Assembly: GCA_947172415.1 (NCBI GenBank)
Contig: OX359195.1
Coordinates: 2,232,001 to 2,296,000 of the forward strand
Direction: 5' to 3'
Length of the DNA stretch: 64,000 nucleotides
From: Chondrosia reniformis
Taxonomy: Eukaryota; Porifera; Demospongiae; Chondrillida; Chondrillidae
A model generated the notes under the pieces. It saw only the letters and a list, made by a program, of their open reading frames with translations. It was not told where the DNA came from and did no database searches. Of this stretch, positions 36 to 61,943 are shown piece after piece. The translations under genes were made by a program, and so were the position numbers. The first letter of the stretch is position 1; every line of letters starts with the position of its first letter.

Positions 36-525
36 ATTAGTTCCATAGTTCTGCAAAAGGGAAGGTTCACATAAAGTTGGAACAGTCAAGCAAAGTGATT
101 GAGGTAGAAAATGTGAGTCCTTTCTAAGGATATATATGAAACATGAGAGGAGGTAGCGCTAAATAGAAATAATACCGGTACCACATGAATATAGCTCAGT
201 CCTTAGTGTTCCACTGACTGCACGGCTTCTCTATATCCAACAATGTATTATTCTGACTTGTTGCATTGATCATTTTGAAGTGGAACACTTTAACTCGCTT
301 TGAAAAATTAAAAATTTGATGGATATCAAGTGGATTTCCAAAGTAATCGTAAACACCATAGTGCTTGTTTCCACTTCTGAGGGCATCCACCATCTGATGT
401 AAATTCTCTACGCATTCCTTCCTGTAATTTTCCTCTCCACTTGTGTGTCTGACTTGAAGCAGTGCTAGCATCAGTAAGCATACAGTAAAGGTAGAAGATA
501 GAGGACACTTCAGAGTAGTCATCAT
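36..525 (-). pseudogene. Receptor copy 1, exon 1 only (exon 2 lies before the window)
   Basis: This is the first exon of the 7TM receptor-like family. It opens with a signal peptide (start codon at 522-520, aligned with the other copies, or 525) and keeps the HTSGEEN cleavage region and the NATSQNNT glycosylation block. It ends at a GTGAGT donor (complement of 30-35). Two lesions are visible. The Cys codon of the NTKDCDIF segment has become TGA near position 196. An ATAT insertion near 130-135 shifts the frame before the RKD motif. The second exon would lie to the left of position 1, so the rest of this copy cannot be judged. I am confident of the family and of the stop. Confidence 0.75.
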
Positions 526-1640
526 AGCACTTTAATCAGCTGCAGAGATGGACAATTAACAAAAAATTAAAGAATTAACAGGCTAGCTGTGGTTTTATTT
601 ACCACGTGAATATACACTGTGCTATATTGGTAATGGCACACATTTATTTATGCTAGGACTTGTGAGTAAAGAATTGCTTATTATATTTTTCGTTTCATCA
701 TTTGGTTATTAATTATAAAATTAAAGTGTGTGTAATCATGGATTCTATACGTACATAATAAGATTTGTTACACCAAGTATGTAGTATGTATTACAGTTGC
801 GTATATATGTTGACTATATATCTGAATTTCATTATCCATTAGGATATATATTCAACCTACATAGTTAGCAGCTAAATAATATTAAAGGTAGAGATGGTTT
901 GCCATAATAAATGGAACGAAAAACAAGCTCATATTAGGTTTAATCAGCTTGAATTGAAGAGCATAATGTTGGTACCTATCATTTAAATTTAAGGAAAATT
1001 TCTTACCTATTGATCAGGCTCTTTTTGAAAATAGCAATTTTGAGTGTAATTTCACTTTCTTCCAGTGTTACCAGTTGAATATGTATATATATATATATAA
1101 TGTATATGTATCTTCTTACCATGCATATATACACTGTATAGTGTATATATATACTGTATGGTGATGCCTTTTGCACGGACGGTCTTGACTTGGTCACATT
1201 AAACATATACGTATGTACTTAAAATTGATGTTAATCATGCGCTTGCAAAGTTCCACTATCACACTCAACGACATACAATCCATTAGTTTTCATCCCATAC
1301 ATGTAGAAAAATAACTCATTCAAACTTTTAAAGTTTACAAACGTAGACCTTTTCAGTAAAGGTTAGCAGTTTCAAAGGTATATATATACGTACGTATTTA
1401 GCTAGCATTTCAATTTTATCTAGGAACTATATGTTTATAACACCAACTACTGCCTATATAAGTCAATTTAGCTGAATTGACTCATTGTTTAAAATGTTGA
1501 AGAAGGTGTATATTTGTATTTTAAAACACATACACATATGGAGTATTCAATGAATTCTAAGTTATAAGCTTGTGACTAAAAATGATATTTCATGTACATA
1601 CGTATATTTATTTAATCTGGAACTATAAATATTGTGCATG
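526..1640. other. AT-rich spacer, gamma/delta-like
   Basis: No gene is supported here. The part next to copy 1 matches the conserved 5' flank of the other receptor exons. From about 930 it matches the spacers at 28.0 kb, 51.7 kb and 59.1 kb, including TTTAATCAGCTT, a GTTACCAG block and a short TATATG-type simple repeat at 1081-1110. The MRI1 fragment found at the equivalent place in gamma units is absent. Confidence 0.5.
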
Positions 1641-1881
1641 AAAAATCTAAGATACCATTTTCCTACATGCTATGCCTATTCTGTTAAAAGAGCCTATAGG
1701 GGAACTAAACCTGAAGAGAGCTTTGGATGAAGATACAGGAGTCTTTTCTTCCTTCTTTTCCCTTCTTTCATTTCTTCTCCACTGGGTCAGACAGCCGTTT
1801 CTGGGAATTTCACCCTTCATCAGTGATCCTGGGAGTCTCTGTCTTTTTCTTTGTCTTGATCTTCTGTGAATCCTTGGCATG
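1641..1881. mobile_element. About 240-bp insertion flanked by GCATG
   Basis: Compared with the matching spacers near 28.71 kb and 52.34 kb, this copy carries about 240 extra bases between two GCATG pentamers (1636-1640 and 1877-1881), which fits a 5-bp target duplication. The insert is much less AT-rich than its surroundings and purine-rich on the minus strand. No terminal inverted repeat or coding similarity was recognised, so its class is unknown. Confidence 0.4.
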
Positions 1882-2207
1882 TTTAATATAACTTCAAGTA
1901 AATGGGTTTGAGAAATACGGTATATAATATAATATGGTATTTTTCAAGCTCATTTAATAATAATTGGACCATGCAATGGACATGCTATTCTTCACTGTAT
2001 AATAAAAAGTATAATATTTAGGAAGAAAGGTATTATACGTACATATGAATCAGATACATATTAATGGATATATACGTATACTAGTAGTGTATCCCATTGC
2101 CACAAAATCCTTAATGCATAATTAGTATGTATATATATGTTGCATAATTGCTTCCATATATAAAGGTTCACACAAACACTAATATATTGACTTGCGATTG
2201 ATTATGA
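1882..2207. other. Spacer downstream of receptor copy 2
   Basis: This AT-rich spacer is shared with the sequence just 3' of receptor copies 5, 6, 10 and 11, for example the GTATCCCATTGCCACAAAA block. It probably contains the 3' untranslated region of copy 2. No gene is visible. Confidence 0.4.
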
Positions 2208-3998
2208 TCAGTATGGTAACATGCCCACATCCTCCCTTCTTTCATCTTCATTATTATCATCATCACCTGCTTCATACCAATCCTTCACCTTCTTCTTCCC
2301 AAAATAACCAAGAGCAGCCACTAACAAGGTTGATATTACATACTCCATCAGCTTGGTGCTGTCAAAGAGAGGTGACACATCCTTGTAATGGTTCAATAAG
2401 GCAGTTACATACAGTGACATACCTGTAAAAATGAACACTATAGCAATGCAAAAGAAGATAGTTGCATGGTTGCTACAAATGCAACAAGTTTTAGGATGTC
2501 TCAACATCAGATACACTTCATGTAGAATGACTACAATTGCTGCTAGTTGTAAAATGTAGCAGAAACTGTAAGTTACAGCTTCTAAGGGTGATTTAATAAA
2601 GTATATTCCAAGATACACAATGGCTACTCCAAACACCTGAATACTATAGACCCAACCCGCCCATCCAAGGGATATTGCATGACACCTGATCACTCTCCTC
2701 AATCTTGTGGATATTTGCTGCTGGTTATTAGATGACTCATTAGTTAATTTGTTTATTTTACCATAAATAAGTGGATATTGACCTATGAAGCTAATGAACA
2801 TAAACACAGCAATTATGAGAGCAATCACACAGTCCGGAAGGAAAATATCGGGATAGTATTCTTCATGTGACATCAAAATTACAGTACACTATAGGTTGCT
2901 CCAAGAATAATAACAAATAAGTAAAAGAAGGAAGCACCAACTAAAGAGTTTCACTTCCGTTCTTTTTTGTCTCTTTTGACTCTGATTAAGAATAAAAATT
3001 AAAATTTTATTCTCACTTCTGATGACTTGTATAATTAGCAAATTTCCAAGAAGTATTATACCAAGAATAACAATATTCTTTGCAAGAGTGAAGGTCCATA
3101 TTCGAGGAATATTTGTTACATGAAAAGGTGTAAGTGTAGTCAATGATATTCCATATGGCTTTCCCTCATGCCACATTGGCACATATCGAAAGAACACTCC
3201 TTGTGAGTCATTCATCACCTTTTTAATAGAAAATATTATATATTACTTATAATGAAAATGCCTACTCGTGCATATTTAATAATAATAAAGGAATATTAAT
3301 CCTGTATATTTTACATAAATGTCAAATGAAATTACCTATATATTAAAATTAATAGTTCAATAATAATATTCAATTTGTGATTAATTCTTTTATAAAAGAA
3401 TTTAGCCAACAAAAGTGAATATAGTCTCTAGCTGTAATATAATTGTATCAAGTGATATGGCGTATAGCTAGGGCACAAGTTGTGCATGTGTATATAGCAT
3501 AGTGGTGACACTCACATTAACTCCAAAGTTCTGCAAAAGAGAAGGTTGACATAAAGTTGGAACAGTTAAGCAAAGCGATTGAGGTAGAAAATGTGAGTCC
3601 TTTTTGAAGAAATGAAACATGAGAGGAGGTAGCATTAAATAGAAATAATAGCGGTACCACACAAATATATCACAGTCCTTAGTGTTCCTCTGACAGCACG
3701 GCTTCTCTATATCCAACACTGTATCATTCTGACTTGTTGCATTGATCATTTTGAAGTGGAACACTTTGACTCGCTTTGAAAAATTAAAAATTTGATGGAT
3801 GTCCAGTGGATTTCCAAAGTAATCGTAAATACCATAGTGCTTGTTTCCACTTCTGAGGGCATCCACCATCTGATGTAAATTCTCAACGCAATCCTTTTTG
3901 TAATTTTCCTCTCCACTTGTGTGTCTGACTTGAAGCAGTGCTAGAATCAGTACGTAGAAAGTAAAGGTAGAATATAGAGGACACTTCAGAGAAGTCAT
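2208..3998 (-). pseudogene. Receptor copy 2 (alpha type), single premature stop
   Basis: This is a two-exon member of the 7TM receptor-like family. Exon 1 is 3998-3516 and intact: signal peptide, HTSGEEN, sequons NFS, NAT and NDT, and Cys residues in KPCC, KDC, SLCL and TLC. It stops at a GTGAGT donor. Exon 2 is 3218-2208, after a TTAAAAAG acceptor. The frames join in phase 0. Exon 2 keeps one frame throughout, except that the Gln of the SNLQC motif at the end of TM2 is TAG (2889-2891), which would remove TM3-TM7. The start of exon 2 has the alpha-type segment VPMWHEGKPYG and NIPRIWTF instead of EPLWYEG and NIPSRWTF. Only copy 11 shares this. A sequencing error at one base would restore it, but the simplest reading is a pseudogene. 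Confidence 0.8.
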
Positions 3999-8537: not shown

Positions 8538-9812
8538 TCAGTATAATAACATGCCCACATCCTCCCTCCTTTTATCTTCATTATTATCATCACCTGCTTC
8601 ATACCAATCCTTCATTTTCTTCTTCCCAAAGTAACCAAGACCAGCCACTAACAAGGTTGATATTGCATACTCCATCAACTTGGTGCTATCAAAGAGAGGT
8701 GACACATCCTTGTAATGGTTCAACAAGGCAGTAACATACAGCGACATGCCTGTAAAAATGAACACTATAGCAATGCAGAAGAAGATAGTTGCATGGTTGC
8801 TACAAATGCAACAATTCTTAGGATGTCTCAACATCAGATACACTTCATGTACAATGACTACAATTGCTGCTAGTTGCAAAATGTAGCAGAAACTGTAAGT
8901 TACAACTTCTAAGGGTTGGTGTATAAACCATATTCCAAGATACACAATGGCTACTCCAAACATCTGAATACTATAGACCGGACCCGCCCATCCAAGGGAT
9001 ATTGCATGACATCTGATCACCCTTCTCCATCTTGGAGGTATTTGCTGCTGGTTATTAAATGACTCATTAAGTAATTTGTTTATTTTGCCATAAATAAGTG
9101 GATATTGACCTATAAAACTAATGAACATAAACACTTCAATTATGAGAGCAATCACACAGTCCGGAAGGAAAATATCGGGATAATATTCTTCATATGACAT
9201 CAGAAATACAGTACATTGTAGGTTGCTCCAAGAATAATAATTAATAATTAAAAGAAAGAAGCACCAAGTAAAGAGTTTGACTTTAGTTATTCTTTTTTGT
9301 CTCTTTTGACTCTGCTTCAGAATAAAAATAAAAATTTTATTTTCACTTCTGATGACTTGTATCACTAGCAAATTTCCAAGAAGTATTATACCAAGAATAA
9401 CAATATTCTTTGCTAGAGTGAAGGTCCATCTTGAAGGAATATTATCTGCTTCAAAAAGAGGTGTAAGCGTAGTCAATGATATTCCATATGGCTTTCCTTC
9501 ATACCACAACGGTTCATATTGAAAGAACACTCCTTGTGAGTCATTCATCACCTTTTTAATAGAAAATAATATTGAAAATGCCTATTCATGCATATTTATT
9601 TATAATAAAGGAATCTTGTATAACATTAAATGTCAAATGAAATTGCCTATATACTGATATAAATTAATAGATTCAATTAATAATATTCAATTTGTGGTTA
9701 TTTTTTATAACAGAATTTAGCCAACAAAAGTGTATAGAATCTCTAGTTATAGTATAATTATATCAAGTGATATATATGGCGTATAGGGATATATTATTAC
9801 AAGTTTTGCATG

Positions 9813-10150: not shown

Positions 10151-10662
10151 ATGTGCAAATAGTATATTAGTGACACTCACTTTAGCTCCAAAGTTCTGTA
10201 AAAGGGAAGGTTCACATAAAGTTGGAACAGTCAAGCAAAGTGATTGAGGTAGAAATTGTGATTCCTTTTTGAAGATATGAAACATGAGAGGAGGTAGCAC
10301 TAAATAGAAATAATAGCGGTACCACACGAATATATGACAATCCTTAGTGTTCCACTGACAACAGGGCTTCTCTATATCTAATATTGTATTATTCTGACTT
10401 GTTGCATTGATCATTTTGAAGTGGAACACTTTGACTCCAATTGAAAATTAAAAATTTGATGGATGTCCAGTGGATTTCCAAAGTAATCGTAAATACCATA
10501 GTGCTTGTTTCCACTTCTAAGGGCATCCACCATCTGATGTAAATTCTCTACGCAATCCTTCTTGTAATTTTCCTCTCCACTTGTGTGTCTGACTTGAAGC
10601 AGTGCTAGAATCAGTAAGTAGACAATAAAGGTAGAGGGTAGAGGACACTTAAGAGAAGTCAT

Positions 10663-16175: not shown

Positions 16176-18025
16176 TTAGTATGATAACATGCCCACATCC
16201 TCCCTTCTTTCATCTTCATTATTATCATGATCACCTGCTTCATACCAATCCTTCATTTTCTTCTTCCCAAAGTAACCAAGAGCAGCCACTAACAAGGTTG
16301 ATATTGCATACTCCATCAACTTGGTGCTATCAAAGAGAGGTGACACATCCTTGTAATGATTCAACAAGGCAGTAACATACAGTGACATGCCTGTAAAAAT
16401 TGACACTACAGCAATGCAAAAGAAGATAGTTGCATGGTTACTACAAATGCAACAATTTTTAGGATGTCTCAACATCAGATACACTTCATGTAAAATGACT
16501 ACAATTGCTGCTAGTTGTAAAATATAGTTGGAACTGTAAGTTACAGCTTTTAAGGGTGAGTTAATAAAGTATATTCCAAGATACACAATGACTACTCCAA
16601 ACACCTGAATACTATAGACCGGACCCGCCCATCCAAGGGATACTGCATGACATCTGATCACCCTCCTCCATCTTGGGGGTATTTGCTGTTGGTTATTAGA
16701 TGACCCATTAAGTAATTTGTTTATTTTGCTATAAATAAGTGGATATTGACCTATGAAGCTAATGAGCATAAACACCTCAATTTTATGAGAGCAATCAAAC
16801 AGTCCGGAAGGAAAATATCGAGATAGTATTCTTCATATGACATCAAAATTACAGTACACTGTAGGTTGCTCCAAGAGTAATACTAATATTTAAAAGGGAG
16901 AAGCACCAAGTAAAGATTTTGACATCAGTTAATCTTATTTGTCTCTTTTGACTCGGATTCAGAATAAAAATTAAAATTTTATTTTCACTTCTGATGACTT
17001 GTATCACTAGCAAATTTCCAAAAAGTATTATACCAAGAATAACAATATTCTTTGCTAGAGTGAAGGTCCATCTTGAAGGTATGCCATCTGCTGCAAAGAG
17101 GTGTAAGCATAGTCAATGATATTCCATATGGCTTTCCTTCATACCACAACGGTTCATATTGAAAGAACACTCTATGTGAATCATTCATCACCTTTTTAGT
17201 AGAAAAAAACATAATGAAAATGCCTCTTCATATATATTATATAATATTCAATTTGTTTCATTCATACTTGTCAAATTATTTTTCTCAAATTATTAAGGTT
17301 TAATATATAATGACTTATATTCTCTTATAACAGATTCAGCCTGGCTGTATTTACGTATATATATTTGACAGTGCCTCATTAGGTCTGTACCTTAGCACTT
17401 TATTGCACGTTTGTAAATAATAATTATTATTATAATTAGCATATATAATCTCTAGCTATAATAATTTATATATATCAAGTGAAATTCATATACGCATATA
17501 GGGAATATAATAAGCTGTGTATGTAGTTGTGACACTCACATTAGCTCCAAAATTCTGCAAAAGAGAAGGTTCACATAAAGTTGGAACAGTCAAGCAAAGT
17601 GATTGAGGTAGAAAAGCCGAGTCCTTTCTAAGGATATGAAACATGACAGGAGGTAGTGCTAAATAGAAATAATACCGGTACCACAAAAATATATCACAAT
17701 CCTTAGTGTTCCACTGACAACAGGGCTTCTTTATATCTAATATTGTATTATTCTGACTTGTTGCATTGATCATTTTGAAGTGGAACACTTTGACTCCGTT
17801 TGAAATATTGAAAATTTGATAGATATCAAGTGGATTTCCAAAGTAATCACGAATACCATAGAGCTTGCTTCCATTTCTGAGGGCATCCATCATCTGATGT
17901 AAATTCTCTATACATTCCTTATTCTTGTAATTCTCCTCTCCACTTGTGTGTTTAACTTGAAGCAGTACTAGCATCAGTAAGTAGACAGTAATGGTGGAGG
18001 ATAGAGGACACTTCAGCGAAGTCAT
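16176..18025 (-). pseudogene. Receptor copy 4 (gamma type), exon 2 multiply broken
   Basis: Exon 1 (18025-17540, 162 codons) is intact and belongs to a distinct gamma subtype: KNKECIENLHQ with one extra residue, NGSKLYGI, and NISNGVKVFHF in place of NFSKRVKVFHF. Exon 2 (17191-16176) keeps TM3 onward in frame. Before that, two bases are missing in the ATCTGCTGCAAAGAGG segment (near 17095), extra T residues lie in AATTTTATGAGAG (near 16783), and further changes occur around TM2. The copy cannot encode a full receptor. Its closest relative in the window is copy 9. Confidence 0.75.
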
Positions 18026-19153: not shown

Positions 19154-19155
19154 TT

Positions 19156-19362: not shown

Positions 19363-19368
19363 TATATA

Positions 19369-21572: not shown

Positions 21573-23350
21573 TCAGTATGATAACATGCCCACATCCTCC
21601 CTTCTTTCATCTTCATTATTATCATGATCACCTGCTTCATACCAATCCTTCACCTTCTTCTTCCCAAAATAACCAAGAGCAGCCACTAACAAGGTTGATA
21701 TTACATACTCAATCAGCTTAGTGCTGTCAAAGAGAGGTGACGCATCCTTGTAATGGTTCAATAAGGCAGTTACATACAGTGACATGCCTGTAAAAATGAA
21801 CACTATAGCAATGCAGAAGTAGATAGTTGCATGGTTGCTAAAATTGCAGCAATTTTTAGGATGTCTCAACATCAGATACACTTCATGTACAATGACTACA
21901 ATTGCTGCTAGTTGTAAAATGTAGCAGAAACTGTAAGTTACAGCTTCTAAGGGTTGGTTTATAAACAATATTCCAAGATCACAATAGCTACTCCAAACAC
22001 CTGAATACTATAGACCGGACCCGCCCATCCAAGGGATATTGCATGACATCTGATCACCCTTCTCCATCTTGGAGGTTGTTGCTGGTTATTAGATGACTCA
22101 TTAAGTAATTTGTTTATTTTGCCATAAATAAGTGGATATTGACCTATGAAACTAATGAGCATAAACACCTCAATTATGAGAGCAATCACACAGTCCGGAA
22201 GGAAAAAATCAGGAAAGTATTCTTCATGTGACATCAGAGTTACAATACATTGTAGGTTGCTCCAAGAATAAAAACAAATAATTAAAAGAAGGAAGCACCA
22301 ACTAAAGAATTTGACTTCAGTTAATCTTTTTTGTCTCTTTTGACTCTGCTTCAGAATAAAAATTAAAATTTTGTTCTCACTTCTGATGACTTGTATAATT
22401 AGTAAATTTCCAAGAAGTATTATACCAAGAATAACAATATTCTTTGCTAGAGTGAAGGTCCATCTTGAAGGAATATTATCTGATATATAAAGAGGTGTAA
22501 GCGTAGTCAATGATATTCCATATGGCTTTCCTTCATACCACAACGGTTCATATTGAAAGAACACTCCTTGTGAGTCATTCATCACCTTTTTAATAGAAAA
22601 TATTATTGAAAATGCCTATTCATGCATATTTAATTATAATAAAGGAATTTTATCTTGTATAACATTAAATGTCAATTGAAATTGCCTATATATTAATATA
22701 AATTAATAGATTCAATTAAAAATATTCAATTTGTGGTTATTTTTTATAACAGAATTTAGCCAACAAAAGTGTATAGAATCTCTAGTTATAGTACAAGTGA
22801 TATATGGTGTATAGGGATATATTATTACAAGTTGTGCATGTGTAAATAGTATAGTAGTGACACTCACATTAGCTCCAAAATTTAGCAAAAGGGAAGGTTC
22901 ACATAAAGTTGGAACAGTCAAGCAAAGTGATTGAGGTAGAGAACCTGAGTCCTTTCTAAGGATTTGAAACATGACAGGAGGTAGCACTAAATAGAAATAA
23001 TAGCGGTACCACACGAATATATCACAATCCTTAGTGTTCCACTGACAGCATGGCTTCTCTATATATAACATTGTATTATTCTGACTTGTTGCATTGATCA
23101 TTTTGAAGTGGAACACTTTGACTCGCTTTGAAAAATTAAAAATTTGATGGATGTCCAGTGGATTTCCAAAGTAATTGTAAATACCATAGTGCTTGTTTCC
23201 ACTTCTGAGGGCATCCACCATCTGATGTAAATTCTCTACGCAATCCTTCTTGTAATTTTCCTCTCCACTTGTGTGTCTGACTTGAAGCAGTGCTAGCATC
23301 AGTACGTAGACAGTAAAGGTAGAGGATAGAGGACACTTCAGAGAAGTCAT
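21573..23350 (-). pseudogene. Receptor copy 5 (delta type), one-base deletion in exon 2
   Basis: Exon 1 (23350-22868) is intact: 161 codons, signal peptide, HTSGEEN, sequons NFS, NAT and NNT, and donor GTGAGT. Exon 2 (22585-21573) is open except for one missing base in CCAAGATCACAATAG near 21977 (copy 10 has GATACACAATAG), which shifts the frame in the loop between TM4 and TM5. Both halves are otherwise preserved and very close to copy 10. This is either a very young pseudogene or an intact gene with a base-calling error. Confidence 0.75.
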
Positions 23351-29025: not shown

Positions 29026-30253
29026 TCAGTATGGTAACATGCCCACATCCTCCCTTCTTTCATCTTCATTATTATCATCATCACCTGCTTCATACCAATC
29101 CTTCACTTTCTTATTCCCAAAATAACCAAGAGCAGCCACTAACAAGGTTGATATTGCATACTCCATCAGCTTGGTGCTGTCAAAGAGAGGTGACACATCC
29201 TTGTAATGATTCAACAAGGCAGTTACATACAGTGACATGCCTGTAAAAATGAACACTATAGCAATGCAGAAGATAGTTGCATGGTTGCTACAAATGCAAC
29301 AATTCTTAGGATGTCTCAACATCAGATACACTTCATGTACAATGACTACAATTGCTGCTAGTTGTAAAATATAGCAGAAACTGTAAGTTACAGCTTCTAA
29401 GGGTGATTTAATAAAGTATATTCCAAGATACACAATGGCTACTCCAAACACCTGAATACTATAGACCGGACCTGCCCATCCAAAGGATATTGCATGAAAT
29501 CTGATCACCCTCCTCCATCTTGGAGGTATTTGCTGCTGGTTATTAGATGACTCATTAAGTAATTTGTTTATTTTGCCATAAATTAAAATAAAATTAATAG
29601 TTCAATAATAATATTCAATTTGTGATTAATTCTTTTATAACAGAATTTAGCCAACAAAAGTGAATAAAGTCTCTAGCTGTAATATAATTGTATCAAGTGA
29701 TATGGCGTATAGCTAGGGTATATATTATTACAAGTTGTGCATGTGTATATAGTATAGTGGTGACACTCACATTAGCTCCAAAGTTCTGCAAAAGAGAAGG
29801 TTGACATAAAGTTGGAACAGTTAAGCAAAGCGATTGAGGTAGAAAATGTGAGTCCTTTTTGAAGAAATGAAACATGAGAGGAGGTAGCACTAAATAGAAA
29901 TAATAGCGGTACCACATAAATATATGACAATCCTTAGTGTTCCACTGACAGCACGGCTTCTCTATATCCAACACTGTATCATTCTGACTTGTTGTATTGA
30001 TCATTTTGAAGTGGAACACTTTGACTCGCTTTGAAAAATTAACAATTTGATGGATGTCCAGTGGATTTCCAAAGTAATCGTAAATACCATAGTGCTTGTT
30101 TCCACTTCTAAGGGCATCCACCATCTGATGTAAATTCTCTACGCAATCCTTCTTGTAATTTTCCTCCCCACTTGTGTGTCTGACCTGAAGCAGTGCTAGA
30201 ATCAGTATGTAGAAAGTAAAGGTAGAATATAGAGGACACTTCAGAGAAGTCAT
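29026..30253 (-). pseudogene. Receptor copy 6 (alpha type), exon 2 truncated
   Basis: Exon 1 (30253-29771) is an intact 161-codon reading frame ending at GTGAGT, with NTTSQNDT and QWNTKDC blocks. Exon 2 is present only from the TM3-TM4 loop (YGKINKLLNESSNNQQQ, about 29580) to the stop at 29026. About 650 bases that should encode the juxtamembrane segment, TM1-TM3 and the splice acceptor are missing, so the retained part abuts intron sequence at about 29582. A 3-nt in-frame loss in TM6 (one Phe) is shared with copy 7. It cannot make a receptor, although exon 1 alone might give a secreted ectodomain if read into the intron. Confidence 0.8.
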
Positions 30254-34957: not shown

Positions 34958-36746
34958 TCAGTATAATAACATGCCCACATCCTCCCTCCTTTTATCTTCA
35001 TTATTATCATCATCACCTGCTTCATACCAATCCTTCATTTTCTTCTTCCCAAAATAACCAAGAGCAGCCACTAACAAGGTTGATAATACATACTCCATCA
35101 ACTTGGTGCTATCAAAGAGAGGTGACACATCCTTATAATGATTCAACAAGGTAGTTACATACAGCGACATGCCTGTAAAAATGAACACTATAGCAATGCA
35201 GAAGATAGTTGCATGGTTGCTAAAATTGCAACAATTCTTAGGATGTCTCAACATCAGATACACTTCATGTAGAATGACTACAATTGCTGCTAGTTGTAAA
35301 ATGTAGCAGAAACTGTAAGTTACAGCTTCTAAGGGTTGGTTTATAAACAATATTCCAAGATACACAATGGCTACTCCAAACACCTAAATACTATAGACCG
35401 GACCCGCCCATCCAAGGGATATTGCATGACATCTGATCACCCTCCTCCATCTTGGGGGTATTTGCTGCTGGTTATTAGATGACTCATTAAGTAATTTGTT
35501 TATTTTGCCATAAATAAGTGGATATTGACTTATGAAACTAATGAGAATAAACACCTCAATTATAAGACCAATCACACAGTCCGGAAGGAAAATATCAGGA
35601 TAGTATTCTTCATGTGACATCAGAAATACAGTACATTGAAGGTTGCTCCAAGAATAATAACAAATATTTAAAAGAGAGAAGCACCAAGTAAAGAGTTTTA
35701 CTTCAGTTAATCTTTTTTGTCTCTTTTGACTCTGCTTCAGAATAAAAATTAAAATTTTATTCTCACTTCTGATGACTTCTATAATTAGTAAATTTCCAAG
35801 AAGTATTATACCAAGAATAACAATATTCTTTGCTAGAGTGAAGGTCCATCTTGAAGGAATATTATCTGCTACAAAAAGAGGTGTAAGCGTAGTCAATGAT
35901 ATTCCATATGGCTTTCCTTCATACCACAACGGTTCATATTGAAAGAACACTCCTTGTGAGTCATTCATCACCTTTTTAATAGAAAATAATATTGAAAATG
36001 CCTATTCATGCATATTTATTTATAATAAAGGAATATTAATCTTGTATAACATTAAATGTCAAATGAAATTGCCTATATATTAATATAAATTAATAGATTC
36101 AATTAATAATATTCAATTTGTGGTTATTTTTTATAACAGAATTTAGCCAACAAAAGTGTATAGAATCTCTAGTTATAGTATAATTATATCAAGTGATATA
36201 TGGCATATAGGGATATATTATTACAAGTTGTCCATGTGTATATAGTATATTAGTGACACTCACTTCAGCTCCAAAGTTCTGTAAAAGGGAAGGTTCACAT
36301 AAAGTTGGAACAGTCAAGCAAAGGGATTGAGGTAGAGAATCTGAGTCCTTTCTGAGGATATGAAACATGAGAGGAGGTAGCACTAAATAGAAATAATAGC
36401 GGTACCACACATATATATCACAATCCTTAGTGTTCCACTGACAGCACGGCTTCTCTAAATATAACATTGTATTATTCTGACTTGTTGTATTGATCATTTT
36501 GAAGTGGAACACTTTGACTCGCTTTGAAAAATTAACAATTTGATGGATGTCCAGTGGATTTCCAAAGTAATCGTAAATACCATAGTGCTTGTTTCCACTT
36601 CTGAGGTCATTCACCATCTGATGTAAATTCTCTACGCAATCCTTCTTGTAATTTTCCTCTCCACTTGTGTGTCTGACTTGAAGCAGTGCTAGAATCAGTA
36701 CGTAGAAGGTAAAGGTAGAGGGTAGAGGACACTTCAGAGAAGTCAT
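34958..36746 (-). pseudogene. Receptor copy 7, single nonsense codon in TM4
   Basis: Exon 1 (36746-36264) is intact, and its protein is identical to that of copy 8. Exon 2 (35971-34958) has one in-frame stop: CAG for Gln in the SIQVFG motif of TM4 has become TAG (35384-35386). Everything before and after is in frame. Copies 7 and 8 are a very recent 6.6-kb duplication, so the stop arose after it or one base is misread. TM6 lacks one Phe codon. Confidence 0.8.
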
Positions 36747-41588: not shown

Positions 41589-43380
41589 TCAGTATAATAA
41601 CATGCCCACATCCTCCCTCCTTTTATCTTCATTATTATCATGATCACCTGCTTCATACCAATCCTTCATTTTCTTCTTCCCAAAGTAACCAAGAGCAGCC
41701 ACTAACAAGGTTGATAATACATACTCCATCAACTTGGTGCTATCAAAGAGAGGTGACACATCCTTATAATGATTCAACAAGGCAGTTACATACAGCGACA
41801 TGCCTGTAAAAATGAACACTATAGCAATGCAGAAGAAGATAGTTGCATAGTTGCTAAAATTGCAACAATTCTTAGGATGTCTCAACATCAGATACACTTC
41901 ATGTAGAATGACTACAATTGCTGCTTGTTGTAAAATGTAGCAGAAACTGTAAGTTACAGCTTCTAAGGGTTGGTTTATAAACAATATTCCAAGATACACA
42001 ATGGCTACTCCAAACACCTGAATACTATAGACCGGACCCGCCCATCCAAGGGATATTGCATGACATCTGATCACCCTCCTCCATCTTGGGGGTATTTGCT
42101 GTTGGTTATTAGATGACTGATTAAGTAATTTGTTTATTTTGCTATAAATAAGTGGATATTGACCTATGAAACTAATGAGCATAAACACCTCAATTATAAG
42201 AGCAATCACACAGTCCGGAAGGAAAATATCAGGATAGTATTCTTCATGTGACATCAGAAATACAGTACATTGAAGGTTGCTCCAAGAATAATAACAAATA
42301 TTTAAAAGAGAGAAGCACCAAGTAAAGAGTTTTACTTCAGTTAATCTTTTTTGTCTCTTTTGACTCTGCTTCAGAATAAAAATTAAAATTTTATTCTCAC
42401 TTCTGATGACTTCTATAATTAGTAAATTTCCAAGAAGTATTATACCAAGAATAACAATATTCTTTGCTAGAGTGAAGGTCCATCTTGAAGGAATATTATC
42501 TACTACAAAAAGAGGTGTAAGCGTAGTCAATGATATTCCATATGGCTTTCCTTCATACCACAATGGTTCATATTGAAAGAACACTCCTTGTGAGTCATTC
42601 ATCACCTTTTTAATAGAAAATAATATTGAAAATGCCTATTCATGCATATTTATTTATAATAAAGGAATATTAATCTTGTATAACATTAAATGTCAAATGA
42701 AATTGCCTATATATTAATATAAATTAATAGATTCAATTAATAATATTCAATTTGTGGTTATTTTTTATAACAGAATTTAGCCAACAAAAGTGTATAGAAT
42801 CTCTAGTTATAGTATAATTATATCAAGTGATATATGGCATATAGGGATATATTATTACAAGTTGTCCATGTGTATATAGTATATTAGTGACACTCACTTC
42901 AGCTCCAAAGTTCTGTAAAAGGGAAGGTTCACATAAAGTTGGAACAGTCAAGCAAAGGGATTGAGGTAGAGAATCTGAGTCCTTTCTGAGGATATGAAAC
43001 ATGAGAGGAGGTAGCACTAAATAGAAATAATAGCGGTACCACACATATATATCACAATCCTTAGTGTTCCACTGACAGCACGGCTTCTCTAAATATAACA
43101 TTGTATTATTCTGACTTGTTGTATTGATCATTTTGAAGTGGAACACTTTGACTCGCTTTGAAAAATTAACAATTTGATGGATGTCCAGTGGATTTCCAAA
43201 GTAATCGTAAATACCATAGTGCTTGTTTCCACTTCTGAGGTCATTCACCATCTGATGTAAATTCTCTACGCAATCCTTCTTGTAATTTTCCTCTCCACTG
43301 GTGTGTCTGACTTGAAGCAGTGCTAGAATCAGTACGTAGAAGGTAAAGGTAGAGGGTAGAGGACACTTCAGAGAAGTCAT
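41589..43380 (-). CDS. Receptor copy 8: intact orphan 7TM receptor-like protein
   Basis: Two exons, 43380-42898 and 42605-41589, joined in phase 0 between a GTGAGT donor and a TTTTTAAAAAG-type acceptor, give 499 residues. Residues 1-29 are a signal peptide ending at HTSG. Residues 30-207 form an ectodomain with Cys 37, 101, 102, 109, 143 and 150 and sequons near 72, 86, 91 and 164. Seven hydrophobic helices follow at about 208-228, 253-277, 292-314, 344-371, 378-401, 415-438 and 454-470. Basic loops (KRQKR, PPRWRR, RHPK, GKKK) alternate with acidic ones, placing the N-terminus outside and the C-terminus inside. The tail ends in a charged EDKRREDVGMLLY. A hydrophobic patch at 112-131 is probably not a membrane span. 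There is no DRY or NPxxY. The GPCR-like topology is inferred and no family was recognised. Confidence 0.8.
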
Positions 43381-45209: not shown

Positions 45210-45289
45210 AACATTAAATTTTATTTTTTGTACTGAATCTGTTGTCAGACATTTTATAAGTTGTTGAATATCAAATAACTTAACTGTTA

Positions 45290-48843: not shown

Positions 48844-50699
48844 TTAGTATGGTAACATGCCCACATCCTCCCTTCTTTCATCTTCATTATTATCATGATC
48901 ACCTGCTTCATACCAATCCTTCATTTTCTTCTTCCCAAAGTAACCAAGAGCAGCCACTAACAAGGTTGATATTGCATACTCCATCAGCTTGGTGCTGTCA
49001 AAGAGAGGTGACACGTCCTTGTAATGGTTCAATAAGGCAGTAACATACAGCGACATGCCTGTAAAAATGAACACTATAGCAATGCAAAAGAAGATAGTTG
49101 CATGGTTGCTAAAATTGCAGCAATTCTTAGGATGTCTCAACATCAGATACACTTCATGTACAATGACTACAATTGCTGCTAGTTGTAAAATGTAGCAGGA
49201 ACTGTAAGTTATAGCTTTTAAGGGTGAGTAAATAAACAGTATTCCAAGATACACAATGGCTACTCCAAACACCTGAATACTATAGACCGGACCTGCCCAT
49301 CCAAGGGATATTGCATGAAATCTGATCACCCTCCTCCATCTTGGGGGTATTTGCTGCTGGTTATTAGATGACTCATTAAGTAATTTGTTTATTTTGCCAT
49401 AAATAAGTGGATATTGACCTATGAAGCTAATGAGCATAAACACCTCAATTATGAGAGCAATCAAACAGTCCGGAAGGAAAATATTGAGATAGTATTCTTC
49501 ATGTGACATCAAAATTACAGTACACTGTAGGTTGCTCCAAGAATAATAATTAATATTTAAAAGAAAGAAGCACCAAGTAAAGAGTTTGACTTCAGTTAAT
49601 CTCTTTTGTCTCTTTTGACTCTGCTTCAGAATAAAAATTAAAATTTTATTTTCACTTCTGATGACTTGTATCATTAGCAAATTTCCAAGAAGTATTATAC
49701 CAAGAATAACAATATTCTTTGCTAGAGTGAAGGTCCATCTTGAAGGTATACCATCTGCTGCAAAAAGAGGTGTAAGCGTAGTCAATGATATTCCATATGG
49801 CTTTCCTTCATACCACAACGGTTCATATTGAAAGAACACTCCTTGTGAGTCATTCATCACCTTATTAGTAGAAAAAAAGTTATAATGAAAATGCCTCTTC
49901 ATATATATTATATAATATTCAATTTGTTTCATTCATACTTGTCAAATTATTTTTCTCAAATTATAAAGGTTTAATATATAATGACTTATATTCTCTTATA
50001 ACAGATTCAGCCTGGCTGTATTTACGTATATATATTTGACACTGCCTCATTGGGTCTGTACCTTAGCACTTTATTGCACGTTTGTAAATAATAATTATTA
50101 TTATAATTAGCATATATAATCTCTAGCTATAATAATTTATATATATCAAGTGAAATTCATATACGCATATAGGGAATATAATAAGCTGTGTATGTAGTTG
50201 TGACACTCACATTAGCTCCAAAATTCTACAGAAGAGAAGGTTCACATAAAGCTGGAACAGTCAAGCAAAGTGATTGAGGTAGAAAACCAAGTCCTTTCTA
50301 AGGATATGAAACATGACAGGAGGTAGTGCTAAATAGAAATAATACCGGTACCACAAAAATATATCACAATCCTTAGTGTTCCACTGACAACAGGGCTTCT
50401 CTATATATATCTAATATTGTATTATTCTGACTTGTTGCATTGATCATTTTGAAGTGGAACACTTTGACTCCATTTGAAATATTGAAAATTTGATGGATAT
50501 CAAGTGGATTTCCAAAGAAATCGTAAATACCATAGAGCTTGCTTCCACTTCTGAGGGCATCCACCATCTGATGTAAATTCTCTATACATTCCTTATTCTT
50601 GTAATTCTCCTCTCCACTTGTGTGTTTAACTTGAAGCAGTACTAGCATCAGTAAGTAGACAGTAATGGTGGAGGATAGAGGACACTTTAGCGAAATCAT
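48844..50699 (-). pseudogene. Receptor copy 9 (gamma type), frameshift in exon 1
   Basis: Exon 2 (49860-48844, 338 codons) is entirely open after a CTAATAAG acceptor, with all seven helices. It even stays open about 70 bases into the intron. Exon 1 starts at 50699 with the gamma-type ectodomain (KNKECIENL, SGSKLYGIYDFFGN, ISNGVKVFHF). An extra TATA in CTATATATATCTAATATTG near 50405 shifts the frame before the KPCCQW block, and a further 3-nt difference follows. Exon 1 should end near 50208. The 7TM half is intact and the ectodomain is not. Confidence 0.75.
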
Positions 50700-52672: not shown

Positions 52673-54450
52673 TCAGTATGATAACATGCCCACATCCTCC
52701 CTCCTTTCATCTTCATTATTATCATGATCACCTGCTTCATACCAATCCTTCACCTTCTTCTTCCCAAAATAACCAAGAGTAGCCACTAACAAGGTTGATA
52801 TTACATACTCCATCAACTTGGTGCTGTCAAAGAGAGGTGACGCATCCTTGTAATGGTTCAATAAGGCAGTTACATACAGTGACATGCCTGTAAAAATGAA
52901 CACTATAGCAATGCAGAAGTAGATAGTTGCATGGTTGCTAAAATTGCAGCAACTTTTAGGATGTCTCAACATCAGATACACTTCATGTACAATGACTACA
53001 ATTGCTGCTAGTTGTAAAATGTAGCAGAAACTGTAAGTTACAGCTTCTAAGGGTTGGTTTATAAACAATATTCCAAGATACACAATAGCTACTCCAAACA
53101 CCTGAATACTATAGACCGGACCCGCCCATCCAAGGGATATTGCATGACATCTGATCACCCTTCTCCATCTTGGAGGTTGTTGCTGGTTATTAGATGACTC
53201 ATTAAGCAATTTGTTTATTTTGCCATAAATAAGTGGATATTGACCTATGAAACTAATGTGCATAAACACCTCAATTATGAGAGCAATCACACAGTCCGGA
53301 AGGAAAAAATCAGGAAAGTATTCTTCATGTGACATCAGAGTTACAATACATTGTAGGTTGCTCCAAGAATAATAACAAATAATTAAAAGAAGGAAGCACC
53401 AAGTAAAGAGTTTGACTTCAGTTAATCTTTTTTGTCTCTTTTGACTCTGCTTCAGAATAAAAATTAAAATTTTGTTCTCACTTCTGATGACTTGTATAAT
53501 TAGTAAATTTCCAAGAAGTATTATACCAAGAATAACAATATTCTTTGCTAGAGTGAAGGTCCATCTTGAAGGAATATTATCTGATATATAAAGAGGTGTA
53601 AGCGTAGTCAATGATATTCCATATGGCTTTCCTTCATACCACAATGGTTCATATTGAAAGAACACTCCTTGTGAGTCATTCATCACCTTTTTAATAGAAA
53701 ATATTATTGAAAATGCCTATTCATGCATATTTAATTATAATAAAGGAATTTTATCTTAAATGTCAATTGAAATTGCCGATATATTAATATACGTAAATTA
53801 ATAGATTCAATTAATAATATTCAATTTGTGGTTATTTTTATAACAGAATTTAGCCAACAAAAGTGTATAGAATCTCTAGTTATAGTACAAGTGATATATG
53901 GTGTATAGGGATATATTATTACAAGTTGTGCATGACATTGTGTAAATAGTATAGTAGTGACACTCACATTAGCTCCAAAATTTAGCAAAAGGGAAGGTTC
54001 ACATAAAGTTGGAACAGTCAAGCAAAGTGATTGAGGTAGAGAACCTGAGTCCTTTGTAAGGATTTGAAACATGAGAGGAGGTAGCACTAAATAGAAATAA
54101 TAGCGGTACCACACGAATATATCACAATCCTTAGTGTTCCACTGACACCATGGCTTCTCTATATCCAACACTGTATCATTCTGACTTGTTGTATTGATCA
54201 TTTTGAAGTGGAACACTTTGACTCGCTTTGAAAAATTAAAAATTTGATGGATGTCCAGTGGATTTCCAAAGTAATCGTAAATACCATAGTGCTTGTTTCC
54301 ACTTCTGAGGGCATCCACCATCTGATGTAAATTCTCTACGCAACCCTTCTTGTAATTTTCCTCTCCACTTGTGTGTCTGACTTGAAGCAGTGCTAGCATC
54401 AGTACGTAGACAGTAAAGGTAGAGGATAGAGGACACTTCAGAGAAGTCAT
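52673..54450 (-). CDS. Receptor copy 10: intact orphan 7TM receptor-like protein
   Basis: Exon 1 is 54450-53968 (161 codons) and exon 2 is 53686-52673 (337 codons), joined in phase 0 for 498 residues. The signal peptide and ectodomain differ modestly from copy 8: YKKGCVENL instead of YKKDC, KPWCQW instead of KPCCQW (one Cys lost), and LLLNFGAN at the splice. The juxtamembrane segment reads YISDNIPSRWTF. The TM3-TM4 loop is one residue shorter (QQQPPRW). TM5-TM7 are typical, and the tail is HDNNEDERREDVGMLSY. Copy 5 is its near twin, broken by one base. The loss of Cys 101 or 102 suggests these two adjacent Cys residues need not both be paired. Confidence 0.8.
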
Positions 54451-54560
54451 AATGGCACTTTAATCAGCTGCAGAGATGGACAATTAACAAAACAATAATC
54501 AATTAACAGGCTAGCTGTGGCTTCATTCACCACACCTTATACACTCTGCTATATTGATAA
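54451..54560 (-). promoter_or_regulatory. Candidate promoter and 5' leader of receptor copy 10
   Basis: Same arrangement as upstream of copy 8, with TATAAGG (complement of 54535-54541) about 85 nt before the ATG. Confidence 0.3.
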
Positions 54561-56320: not shown

Positions 56321-56419
56321 CTTGTGAAACAGACTGTTATTCTTCAAAAAAATTATTGTTTCTTCTGAATCTGTTGTCAAACATTTTATAAGTTGCATAT
56401 CAATTAACCTTTACACTTA

Positions 56420-56770
56420 ACTGTTAACAGAGAAAAGAGTCGGTTGCTGTAAAGGAACTGATTTAGAGAGGTCTGTACTGTCCCTTCAGTCTCCTAGCAA
56501 CCATGCAGTCCCATGTGGGTGGATGGCCTACCTCGTATGGACTCCCACTGGTACACCTTGCTCAGTAACCTGGCCGTTCTCTCATCATCAATAAGTATAT
56601 GCCTCCTTAAGAGGAATGTTCCATGGCATGAAAGTTAGTTTTCTGTTATAGTGACGCTATCTGAAGAAAATGGTCTATCTCTTTGCAAAGTTCCTTCTTC
56701 TCATCCTCTGTCAGCTTTGAACAAGTGACTCTGCTCCATCTCCCTCATGCAGTCTATAGCTGTGGCATGT
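56420..56770 (-). pseudogene. Unassigned minus-strand coding remnant (delta unit 2)
   Basis: Nearly identical to 25330-25660. Confidence 0.3.
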
Positions 56771-56979
56771 ATATTAACGTCTGTCTATATAGTTAGATAC
56801 ACTCATGATCAAGATACTGTATTGCATGATTCCCTTAAAGTAAAAGTATGACCTATCTTTCTAGTATAATATTCTGTGTTTCAAATGATACTGGAGTAAA
56901 TAGATCATAAAGACAACCTTTTTTTCATTTCATTGCAGCTTGCATGGTCCTCATAGTTGGCCTATGTGTGTATCCCAGG

Positions 56980-58060
56980 CAACCGGGTCACTCATCTCCC
57001 ACTCTGAAGTGTCTCCTCGTGAGAGGCAGTGCTAATGTATAAGTGGAATGAAATGCCTTCCTTCAATTGGACCTTTGTACGGATGAATCTATAAAATTGC
57101 TCTTGTGGTTGTCACCTAGCAACCTCTTTTGCATGTGAATCATGGACTATTGTTCCCTCTTAGCTCAACTTGTCCCTTTCAACACATTTAGTGCCTCTTC
57201 CTATGGTAACTACAGTGGGCGTGGCATTGTCAGAGAAGGTCATCACAAACCAAGCCACCATCTTTCTCCCAGGTTGAGCAATAGGGAGAATGGCTGAGAG
57301 GCGACTGCATTTCTGGTGTATCAACATTGACATGTGGGCCACAAATGAGACAGAGAGGTTAGGGGTTAGGTTCTGGTATATATAGGCAGACACTTCAGGC
57401 AGCCATTTTGTTGCAGGAAGCACTGTATGTATCCTTCACAGGGCCAGATCAGCAGTTCTTCTCTTATATAGCCTCCTTCTTACTGGTAGTCTCCACCTCA
57501 AAATAGTACTCTCCCAACTTGACTGCCACTACATTAACTGTTGTGGCCTTCCACTTGCTTGTCCCTGGTAAAATATGAAGTGGAACCTGAGACATCATCA
57601 ATTAATTCAGAGTTGGAGTCATCTTGTTCATCAGTTCTTTAATCTTCAGAAGTGAATCCGGAAACACCTTAGGTGTCCCATGGCCAGATGTCCTGTTCAT
57701 GAATGAGCTGTAGTCCTCAATGGAGCTGTCACTTTGTGGAGTATATAGTTCTCAGAGAGATCCTCCATTTGTCGGGAAGACTGTACTTCTCCTCTCTCCC
57801 TTCTCCTTCTAATTCGTTAATGGCCTCAAGGATGAGGTCGTGACTGCATCTCATCACCTTATCAACTCCTCTGCATTCATGGCCAAGTGGTGCTCCTCCA
57901 GAACAGTAAGAATTTCCCTCTACAGCATGACCTTATTTGAATCATCCTCAATGGTTTCCAAGGTAAATCATCCTGCTGCATGAGCTGGAGGGAATGAGAT
58001 GGGAGTGAGGGTCTTCAGGTTGACTATTACCATCTGTTGTATTTTGAAATTGATTTGTCT
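56980..58060 (-). pseudogene. ADAR-like pseudogene (delta unit 2)
   Basis: Sister of 25880-26960: DSHAKE retained (near 57135), PCGD deleted, dsRBD VAVKLGEYYFEV with TTSKKEA retained, and winged-helix-like region present at about 57750-57925. The core reads VVTIGRGTKCVERDKLS, a change of the GTG turn not found in the sister copy. Confidence 0.75.
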
Positions 58061-58384
58061 CTTCATTGTAAATTTTTGTCATGCACTGCTACATATATTA
58101 TTATGCTTGTGGAATTGTATACCGATCAATGCTTCTTACTCATGATCATGATCAGAATATAATTCCTGATGCATGTTGTGTTTGCATCTCTACAACACTG
58201 TGGCACACTTTGCCAAGTAAGTGCTGCAGACTTGTGAAGTTTGTCCCAAATTACGGTGGCTTACCTTTTAATTACAAATATATAGCAAAGATTATAAATG
58301 TTCATTTTTTTGTATGCAGAATTTTCGTTATGACATAGCCGAGGAAGGGGCTTGGCTCAAATTACTGGTCGAAGTTATTGTATT

Positions 58385-58690
58385 GTGAGAGATGGGCAAA
58401 TTTGGACAAATATACATCAAAATTCATTGGAAACCTTTCATACATGTCTGTGAATATTGACACAAAGTACTAGTTGCAGCTTCATATCTCTCCATTTAAT
58501 AAAGTTACAGCACTAAATGCTTATTAATTACTGGTATACAAAGACAATGTATGGTGAGAGATAAGGCAAATTTAGGCAGATATCAATATTTGTAAAACTC
58601 TTTGGAAACTTTCATTCATTTTTGTGAAGACGGACATGCAGCTTCATATTTCATCTTTTGACAGAGTTACAGCACTAAATGTGCTTAAAA
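58385..58690. repeat. Diverged tandem duplication, about 165 bp (second copy)
   Basis: Same pair as 27300-27605. Confidence 0.6.
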
Positions 58691-59237
58691 TTTTATCCTT
58701 AGAGATTTATTACTCTGGATAATATGTACTAGTTATTACCTTCGTGCATGCCCAAGGTCGAGTGCAATAAATATGCAATATGCCATTGTGAGCGTGTAAT
58801 AAGTGGTTTATCGCTAAATTAGTCGCTCTACAAATGCGCGACATTACTGTACTTGCACTGGTTTGCAATCAGTGTGTTTGTGTTGCTAGCCATACATGGA
58901 AGATGCGTAATGCGTGAGGACTGTTTCCGCCTTAAAGCCATATAAGGAGGTGTTAGGGGCATTTACGTGTTACTGGCAGTACTGGTAACCTGTTTACCTG
59001 TTTACCTTTCCCTTTGATGTATGACGTCATCATGTGATAAGTTGGCATATATCCCTGTTTAGCTACCCGAATACAGTGATATTAGGTTTAATCAGCTTGA
59101 TGAACATAATGTTGGTACCTATATATCAGTTAAATTTAAGAACAACTTCTTACCTATTGATCAAGCTCTTTGTGATAATAGCAATTTTGAGTGTCATTAC
59201 CATTGTTACAAGTCGAGTATATATACATGTATATACG

Positions 59238-59238
<1 letters not shown>

Positions 59239-59281
<43 letters not shown>

Positions 59282-59290
59282 GATATGTAT
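59239..59290. repeat. GTATAT microsatellite, expanded
   Basis: About nine units, ending in a GGATAT variant. Confidence 0.85.
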
Positions 59291-60170
59291 CTTCTTACCA
59301 TGCATGCATGCAATGCGCGAATGGTGATGGCTTTTGCATGGACAGTATTGACTTTGTCACATTAAACATATGTATGTACTTAAAATTAATGTTAATCATG
59401 CACTTAGCAAAGTTCCACTATCACACTCAATGACATACAATCCATTAGTTTTCATTCCATACATGTAGAGAAACAACTCATTCAAACTTAGATAGTAATA
59501 TACAAACGTAGACCTTTTCAGTACAGGTTAGCAGTTTCAAAGGTATATTTATACGGACGTATTTGATATTTCTTAGCTAGCATTTCAATTTCATCTAGGA
59601 ACTGCATGTTCATAACAACAATTACTGCCCATATAAGTAAATTCAATTGAATTGACTCATTGTTTAAAATGTTGAAGAAGGTGTATATTTGTATTTTAAA
59701 ACACATACACATATGGAGTATTCAATGAATTCTAAGTTATAAGCTTGTGACTATACAAAAAGGATATTTCATGTACATACATATATGGGTACATACGTAT
59801 ATATATTCATTTAATCTGGAGCTGTAATATGCATGTTTATTATTATTTCTAACTTCAAGTAAATGGGTTTGAGAAATATAGAATATAATATAATATGGTA
59901 TTTTTCAAACTCATTTAATAATAATTAGACCATGCAATGGACTACTATTCTTCACTGTATAATAAAAAGTATAATAATTTAGAAAGAAAGGTATTATACG
60001 TACATAAGAATCAGATGCATTAATGGATATATACGTATACTAGTAGTGTATCCCATTGCCACAAAATCCTTAATATATACATAATAGGTATGTATATATA
60101 TGTTGCATAATTGCTTCCATATATAAAGGTTCACACAAACACTAATATATTGACTCGCGATTGATTATTA

Positions 60171-61943
60171 TTAGTATGGTAACATGCCCACATCCTCCCT
60201 TCTTTCATCTTCATTATTATCATGATCACCTGCTTCATACCAATCCTTCACCTTCTTCTTCCCAAAATAACCAAGAGCAGCCACTAACAAGGTTGATATT
60301 GCATACTCCATCAACTTGGTGCTGTCAAAGAGAGGTGACACGTCCTTGTAATGGTTCAATAAGGCAGTAACATACAGCGACATGCCTGTAAAAATTAACA
60401 CTATAGCAATGCAAAAGAAGATAGTTGCATGGTTGCTACAAATGCAACAATTCTTAGGATGTCTCAACATCAGATACACTTCATGTAGAATGACTACAAT
60501 TGCTGCTAGTTGTAAAATGTAGCAGAAACTGTAAGTTACAGCTTCTAAGGGTTGGTTTATAAACAATATTCCAAGATACACAATGGCTACTCCAAACACC
60601 TGAATACTATAGACCGGACCCGCCCATCCAAGGGATATTGCATGACATCTGATCACCCTCCTCCATCTTGGGGATATTTGCTGCTGGTTATTAGATGACT
60701 GATTAAGTAATTTGTTTATTTTGCCATAAATAAGTGGATATTGACTTATGAAACTAATGAGCATAAACACCTCAATTATAAGAGCAATCACACAGTCCGG
60801 AAGGAAAATATCGGGATAGTATTCTTCATGTGACATCAGAAATACAGTACATTGAAGGTTGCTCCAAGAATAATAACAAATAATTAAAAGAGAGAAGCAC
60901 CAAGTAAAGAGTTTGACTTCAGTTAATCTTTTTTGTCTCTTTTGACTCTGCTTCAGAATAAAAATTAAAATTTTATTCTCACTTTTGATGACTTGTATGA
61001 CTAGCAAATTTCCAAGAAGTATTATACCAAGAATAACAATATTCTTTGCAAGAGTGAAGGTCCATATTCGAGGAATATTTGTTACTTGAGGTGTAAGCGT
61101 ATGCAACGATACTCCATATGGCTTTCCCTCATACCACATTGGCACATATCGAAAGAATACTCCTTGTGAGTCATTCATCACCTTTTTAATAGAAAATATT
61201 ATATATTACTTATATTGAAAATGCCTACTTGTGCATATTTAATAATAATTAAAGGATTCTTGTATATTTTTCATAAATGTCAAATGAAATTGCCTATATA
61301 TTAATCTTAATAGATTAAAAAATTATATTCAATTTGTGATTAATTATTTTATAACAGAATTTAGCCAACAAAAGTGAATAGAGTCTCTAGCTATAATGGC
61401 GTATGGGGCATATATTATTACAAGTTGTGCATGTGTATATAGTATAGTGGTGACACTCACATTAGCTCCAAAGTTCTGCAAAAGGGAAGGTTCACATAAA
61501 GTTGGAACAGTCAAGCAAAGTGATTGAGGTAGAAAATGTGAGTCCTTTCTAAGGATATGAAACATGAGAGGAGGTAGCACTAAATAGTAATAATAGCGGT
61601 ACCACACGAATATATCACAATCCTTAGTGTTCCACTGACAGCATGGCTTCTCTATATCTAACACTGTATCATTCTGACTTGTTGCATTGATCATTTTGAA
61701 GTGGAACACTTTGACTTGCTTTGAAAAATTAACAATTTGATGGATGTCCAGTGGATTTCCAAAGTAATCGTAAATACCATAGTGCTTGTTTCCACTTCTG
61801 AGGGCATCCACCATCTGATGTAAATTCTCTACGCAATCCTTCTTGTAATTTTCCTCTCCACTTGTGTGTCTAACTTGAAACAGTGCTAGGATCAGTAAGT
61901 AGACAGTAAAGGTAGAGGATAGAGGACACTTCAGAGAAGTCAT
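60171..61943 (-). CDS. Receptor copy 11: intact orphan 7TM receptor-like protein (alpha type)
   Basis: Exon 1 is 61943-61461 (161 codons) and exon 2 is 61181-60171 (336 codons), joined in phase 0 for 497 residues. The juxtamembrane ectodomain is of the alpha type (YVPMWYEGKPYG and TPQVTNIPRIWTF). It carries changes not seen elsewhere: SKQVKVFHF for SKRVKVFHF, YRYYYYL for YRYYFYL, and IQVIKSEN in the first cytosolic loop. All seven helices, the NQSSNNQQQ loop and the HDNNEDERREDVGMLPY tail are present. It is the only intact alpha-type receptor in the window and begins the third super-unit. Its downstream neighbour on the right is MRI1, not the LRR/ADAR pair usual for alpha. Confidence 0.8.

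Follow-up and report, generated by a model that had tools for sequence, protein, structure and literature searches.

A tandem array of probable seven-helix surface receptor genes and its dispersed relatives in the genome of the sponge Chondrosia reniformis

We analysed a stretch of 64,000 nucleotides from chromosome 7 (C7) of the sponge Chondrosia reniformis (C7 2,232,001-2,296,000, hereafter the window; genome of 117,379,552 bases in 15 contigs). The window is the middle part of a C7 array of about 140 kb made of copies of one two-exon gene. Judged from sequence, the family to which these copies belong probably consists of unrecognised seven-transmembrane (7TM) surface receptors resembling G protein-coupled receptors (GPCRs). 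An initial annotation of this DNA had described eleven copies of the gene, all on the minus strand, three of them intact, and both counts were borne out. Blastn with the exons of copy 11, which covered the minus strand, detected 11 copies of exon 1 and 10 of exon 2 between positions 36 and 61943, and tblastn in all frames gave the same copies and none further in the window (Table 1). Of the 11 copies, three keep both reading frames open together with an ATG, a GT donor and an AG acceptor: copy 8 (43380-41589), copy 10 (54450-52673) and copy 11 (61943-60171). Frameshifts break copies 1, 3, 4, 5, and 9, in-frame stops break copies 2 and 7, and copy 6 is broken by a loss of 450 bases at the start of exon 2.

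The first exon, from ATG to donor, encodes 161 residues and the second about 336, and the intron between them is in phase 0. All 11 window copies carry the donor GTGAGT. The acceptor AAG, preceding GTGATG, is present in 9 of the 10 copies of exon 2, that of copy 6 having been lost with its first 450 bases; in copies 4 and 9, one or two bases differ immediately before the acceptor. As to the extent of exon 1, the two-exon model annotated initially stood, while the open stretch past ...GAN did not stand as coding sequence, since it is intron and exon 1 ends at 161 residues. In most of the C7 and C10 array copies listed, an acceptor-like site (TCTCTGCAG) lies about 17-23 bases upstream of the ATG, and none of this type was seen in the dispersed members listed; it may be a sign of a 5' non-coding exon. 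On closer look, a canonical phase-0 donor stands at the expected place in 20 of 24 exon-1 members of the family taken from the whole genome. Among the remaining four, inspection by eye gives a GC donor for L017 and GTAATA for L010, the frame of L018 is lost ahead of the donor, and L026 is ambiguous. Splice support for the far members consists of matches to the ATG and donor pattern.

Table 1. Exons of the eleven gene copies in the window, numbered from its first base.
Copy	Exon	State	Position	Strand
1	1	frameshift; exon 2 lies left of the window	36..522	-
2	1	open	3516..3998	-
2	2	stop at residue 110	2208..3218	-
3	1	1-base deletion	10181..10662	-
3	2	open	8538..9551	-
4	1	open	17540..18025	-
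4	2	frameshifts	16176..17191	-
5	1	open	22868..23350	-
5	2	1-base deletion	21573..22585	-
6	1	open	29771..30253	-
6	2	first 450 bases and acceptor missing	29026..29583	-
7	1	open	36264..36746	-
7	2	in-frame stop at residue 196	34958..35971	-
8	1	signal-like segment and ectodomain; intact gene	42898..43380	-
8	2	seven-helix body; intact gene	41589..42605	-
9	1	frameshifts	50211..50699	-
9	2	open	48844..49860	-
10	1	open; nearly invariant C101 to W	53968..54450	-
10	2	open	52673..53686	-
11	1	intact gene	61461..61943	-
11	2	intact gene	60171..61181	-

Exon 1 encodes a signal-like N-terminal segment followed by an outer domain, about 130 residues long, in which five or six cysteines are conserved. 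Across the 24 exon-1 members, cysteines 37, 102, 109, and 143 are invariant and cysteine 101 is nearly so, with an extra cysteine near residue 150 in C7, C10, L009, L019, and C8 members. An N-x-S/T sequon is common to 21 of the 24 (counted by eye). The signal peptide and the glycosylated, cysteine-bearing ectodomain on its own exon, as first annotated, are consistent with these features. Copy 10, which is otherwise intact, carries a W in place of the nearly invariant C101. A Pfam scan of the 24 members gave matches at chance level only (DUF5472 in 3 of 24, best E 0.02), and so did a 24-row ectodomain profile against PDB (three matches, E 0.22-0.48).

The body encoded by exon 2 was studied in 28 members by hydropathy, with a cut of 1.2; this cut and the helix boundaries were chosen by us, the latter from the hydropathy. 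Seven hydrophobic regions rise above the cut, the weak ones being TM2, which has three adjacent sub-peaks, and TM7. Inner loops 1-3 are rich in K and R, the outer loops are not basic, and the tail is mixed, its acidic and basic residues being equal in number. By hydropathy and charge, the N-terminus is therefore predicted outside and the basic loops inside, in agreement with the seven-helix body of GPCR-like charge orientation proposed at the outset; the hydropathy count gave no number of helices other than seven. A hydrophobic stretch of exon 1 near residue 119 was considered as an eighth helix and rejected, its family mean of 0.84 lying below the cut. Residues invariant in the 28 members include W46, W100, E126, F132-L133, Y154-P155, Y158, H186, and G191-W192, and further E240, R246-H247-P248, C251-C252, and G310-Y311. 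The conserved inner face is made of E/Q-Y-P-x-x-Y at the end of TM3, R-H-P-x-x-C-C in loop 3 and G-Y in inner TM7, and the TM2-TM3 loop, HEEYYPEYFLP, is highly conserved. In 11 deep representatives, the cytosolic half was better conserved than the outer half in all seven helices (mean 0.51 vs 0.36). The true assignment of the labels was the only one of 128 to reach the observed difference, and 10 of 337 circular shifts reached it, four of these being shifts of one to four residues. Neither NPxxY nor CWxP was found in any of the 28 members, and [DE]R[YWFH] occurs in two of them, ahead of TM1 and not at TM3, so the reported lack of DRY, NPxxY, or another class signature holds.

The family extends well beyond the window. 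The body of copy 8 has 89 matching places in the genome, some of which are pieces of one copy. When two-exon profiles were applied to the fetched loci, 47 near-full-length open exon-2 frames, covering at least 300 of 330 positions, were counted on nine chromosomes. Of these, 13 belong to the C7 array (about 2.16-2.30 Mb) and 14 to C10 (0.55-0.63 and 1.97-2.00 Mb); a C10/C12 group accounts for 5, and the remaining 15 are scattered over C2, C3, C4, C6, C7, C13, and C14. Members are clustered on chromosome 10, and further loci lie on eight more chromosomes besides 7 and 10. A full open exon 1 stands upstream of 39 of the 47 frames. In 37 of the 47, exon 1 combines an ATG with a GT or GC donor-like site that is in frame (phase 0); 36 are left without one that has an early stop in exon 2. 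Eight frames are without a full exon 1, among them C10:551879, truncated at the edge of the fetched sequence. At the dispersed loci, 13 of the 15 open exon-2 frames are accompanied by an open exon 1 that has ATG and donor, so the pseudogene-rich picture, true of the window with 8 of its 11 copies broken, is partly local. Identity among the dispersed open members is 30-40%. Farther relatives were found at C8:7.626-7.628 Mb, C3:9.18 Mb, and C7:0.216 Mb, the last two resting solely on E-values of 1e-4 to 1e-5. The C8 relative is 28% identical over part of the body and retains the signal-like segment and the CC...C ectodomain motif; profile-profile comparison with hhalign tied the family to one C8 paralog with a probability of 98.7%. 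By eye, the C7:0.216 Mb relative also has a similar N-terminal segment and ectodomain motif. Two peptide patterns per scan were matched by 56 stretches of prokaryote genomes and 17 of viral contigs, none of which proved a relative by tblastn. The available portions of open-licence PMC texts retrieved with the terms tried contain no description of the family.

To characterize selection, we used the pooled ratio of nonsynonymous to synonymous differences (pN/pS). For exon 2, it was 0.50 in C7, 0.63 in C10, and 0.60 in the dispersed members (12, 13, and 11 sequences), and for exon 1, 0.48, 0.59, and 0.57 (10, 5, and 9 sequences). We read these values, about 0.5-0.6 in the three larger groups, as purifying selection on the family. 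They bear on the possibility of an assembly artefact or a functionless repeat, which the 8 broken copies of 11 in the window could suggest. We find this very improbable, since both exons show such values in the larger groups, gene sequence and intergenic DNA vary among the copies (69-96% identity over the aligned parts of the latter), and open exon-2 frames lie on nine chromosomes.

By sequence, the description of the family as unrecognised was upheld against Pfam, NCBIfam, and PDB, and these searches gave no strong match to a known non-receptor membrane family either. The Pfam scan of the 28 exon-2 members listed 14 families at E<=1, with no GPCR model (7tm_1, 7tm_2, 7tm_3, GOST_TM) among them; the best E, 0.0021 for DUF6264 in 1 of 28 members, and DUF3139 in 4 of 28 (best 0.041) were put down to chance, as was the best NCBIfam E of 0.0014 in 1 of 14 members. 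A broader 14-row body profile gave two PDB matches at E<=10 (E 1 and 1.1), neither of them a receptor. As controls, a three-row class A profile and a four-row class B profile from the same genome retrieved 761 and 39 PDB sequences, respectively, at E<=0.001. Three of seven control receptors were scanned with Pfam and gave clear matches, the class A control L045 reaching 122.8 bits with 7tm_1. In the genome, 7tm_1 has 16 places (14 above the cut-off), while the 95 places of 7tm_2 and 68 of 7tm_3 are exon pieces and not gene counts; by eye, none of these lies at a family locus. G-alpha matches are also present in the genome.

The family was then set against the described receptor classes. Class A GPCRs, including AqRho-A to E of Amphimedon, are alike in their seven helices, N-out orientation, and sponge-specific clusters of neighbouring genes, as given in the available part of their description (PMC4302439). 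They differ in that the family lacks 7tm_1, NPxxY, and CWxP and has a conserved ectodomain on its own exon. Adhesion/secretin (class B) receptors, numerous in this genome, also carry seven helices after an outer domain, but no 7tm_2 was found in the 28 exon-2 members and no known outer domain in the 24 exon-1 members. As for class C, 7tm_3 was not listed for the 28 members, and the outer domain has just about 130 residues compared with the large Venus-flytrap. The family could also be a very divergent branch of a described 7TM class, for instance GOST/Hi-GOLD, with a signal too weak for the Pfam models. A single outer domain immediately preceding the 7TM body is indeed the Hi-GOLD layout, known from sponges according to the accessible part of a recent paper (PMC12716839). 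Profiles can miss such ties: no match was obtained between the family and the sponge's own class A and B receptors, and hhalign, at the depth used, likewise did not link class A to class B, which leaves this test powerless. On the other side, GOST_TM (PF06814) is absent from the 14 families listed for the 28 members, and its six places in the genome, on C2 at 7.38 and 10.05 Mb, lie away from the family. We consider such a branch somewhat unlikely.

On balance, we favour a sponge family of seven-helix cell-surface receptors, with a confidence only modestly above even. This reading is based on the joint recurrence of exons 1 and 2 (39 of 47 frames with a full open exon 1), on the far C8 relative that keeps the signal-like segment and the CC...C motif, on the pN/pS values, on the seven regions with basic inner loops, on the conservation of the inner halves, and on the presence of G-alpha in the genome. 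Gene model, copy number, and topology by hydropathy and charge stand. Several observations weigh against a receptor. No GPCR class match above chance was found by sequence in Pfam or PDB, nor any class motif; the only match of the 28-row profile to PDB at E<=10 was a beta-1 adrenergic chimera (E 0.14), over two inconsistent weak stretches. The pN/pS groups of C7 include open exons of genes whose other exon is broken, exon 1 is represented by few sequences, and pN/pS reached 1.50 in one C10 paralog pair (0.45 in the other small group). Recent replacements were not enriched outside in the three groups (Fisher p = 0.32, 0.91, 0.14), which gives no general indication of positive selection on a ligand face. 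Finally, a conserved inner and a variable outer side could also suit a transporter or a trafficking protein.

An alternative is a non-receptor seven-helix protein, a transporter, lipid enzyme, or trafficking factor amplified for dosage. The missing receptor class match would fit it, and the HEEYYPEYFLP loop together with the H- and C-rich inner loop 3 could form a catalytic or metal site. Matches to such families in Pfam, NCBIfam, and PDB were at chance level only, and amplification for dosage would not favour identities of 30-40% among dispersed open members; we hold this explanation to be unlikely. Less likely still, the copies may serve self/non-self or gamete recognition in place of environmental or microbial sensing. 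An outer domain and turnover within tandem arrays generally fit recognition systems, but no excess of outer-side replacements was detected. Positive selection on the outer side was tested in the three groups and not found. In the C10 group, local replacement peaks around loop 2 and outer TM5 were seen post hoc and are not claimed.

The array itself suggests how its copies arose. The DNA between the genes is repeated together with them: the intergenic stretches belonging to copies 4 and 5 are 96% identical to those of copies 9 and 10 over 1.3 and 5.8 kb, and other aligned pairs are 69-95% identical. These repeated stretches, and a common tRNA-like insert, argue for tandem block duplication. A two-gene block, upstream DNA included, was apparently duplicated, with copies 4-5 (16176-28000) corresponding to copies 9-10 (48844-60170). 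The insert, of about 300 bases and tRNA-derived, lies in the intron of copy 3 (9813-10149), its tRNA-like part at 10004-10079 on the plus strand; it is flanked by a repeated stretch of about 21 bases and resembles a short interspersed element with a target-site duplication. Counterparts are present in array copies at C7:2.160 and 2.204 Mb and absent from one further copy scanned, and the insert probably entered before duplication. No inverted repeat of at least 40 bases was found in 43381-48843, the sole intergenic stretch tested for one, and an open frame upstream of copy 8 (46752-47453) had no Pfam match at E<=0.1. Elsewhere, a TRAF-like gene with a MATH domain and weak RING matches (L012:1-1011, C7:6.719 Mb) adjoins the dispersed C7 cluster, and a 307-residue open frame of SYLSTVTITLC-type repeats lies next to two family members in L011 (C10:750000-756700).

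Nematode serpentine chemoreceptors and other large chemosensory 7TM families occur in tandem clusters with pseudogenes and have intact paralogs elsewhere. The sponge family is alike in this: as in large chemosensory-type families, its tandem copies are numerous and show gene birth and death alongside intact genes; it is unlike them in that none of the 28 members has a Pfam match to them. Should the family consist of receptors, we infer a sensing role and coupling to G proteins. The outer domain and the outer helix halves would bind a small or peptide ligand coming from the water, symbionts, or neighbouring cells, and the conserved inner face would then relay the signal to a partner in the cytosol, for which a G protein is the likeliest candidate. 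Fresh copies would come from tandem block duplication; in the window the majority of them decay, and selection would retain others. More doubtfully, the family may even form an animal class of seven-helix receptors in its own right, with an outer domain peculiar to it, expanded in this sponge and maybe its main set of microbiome or self sensors.

Such a class would have been passed over in earlier surveys. In the parts available, the Amphimedon survey retained matches to the GPCR_A clan of Pfam (PMC4302439) and would not include a family without such a match, the GPCRs of Halichondria were listed through Pfam annotation (PMC8242945), and a 2025 paper on choanoflagellate GPCRs names further families, with Hi-GOLD among those in sponges (PMC12716839). 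No family member scanned, the 28 exon-2 members and more, matches a Pfam GPCR model; if our reading is true, Pfam-based GPCR surveys miss such a class by design. Counts of early-animal receptors would then be incomplete, given the 47 open seven-helix exons of the family and the 16 class A places of this genome. A defined gene set is now available for ligand and localisation tests. Sponges have no neurons and can still sense water, microbes, and other sponges; the genes described here would most likely encode surface sensors that current receptor catalogues would overlook.

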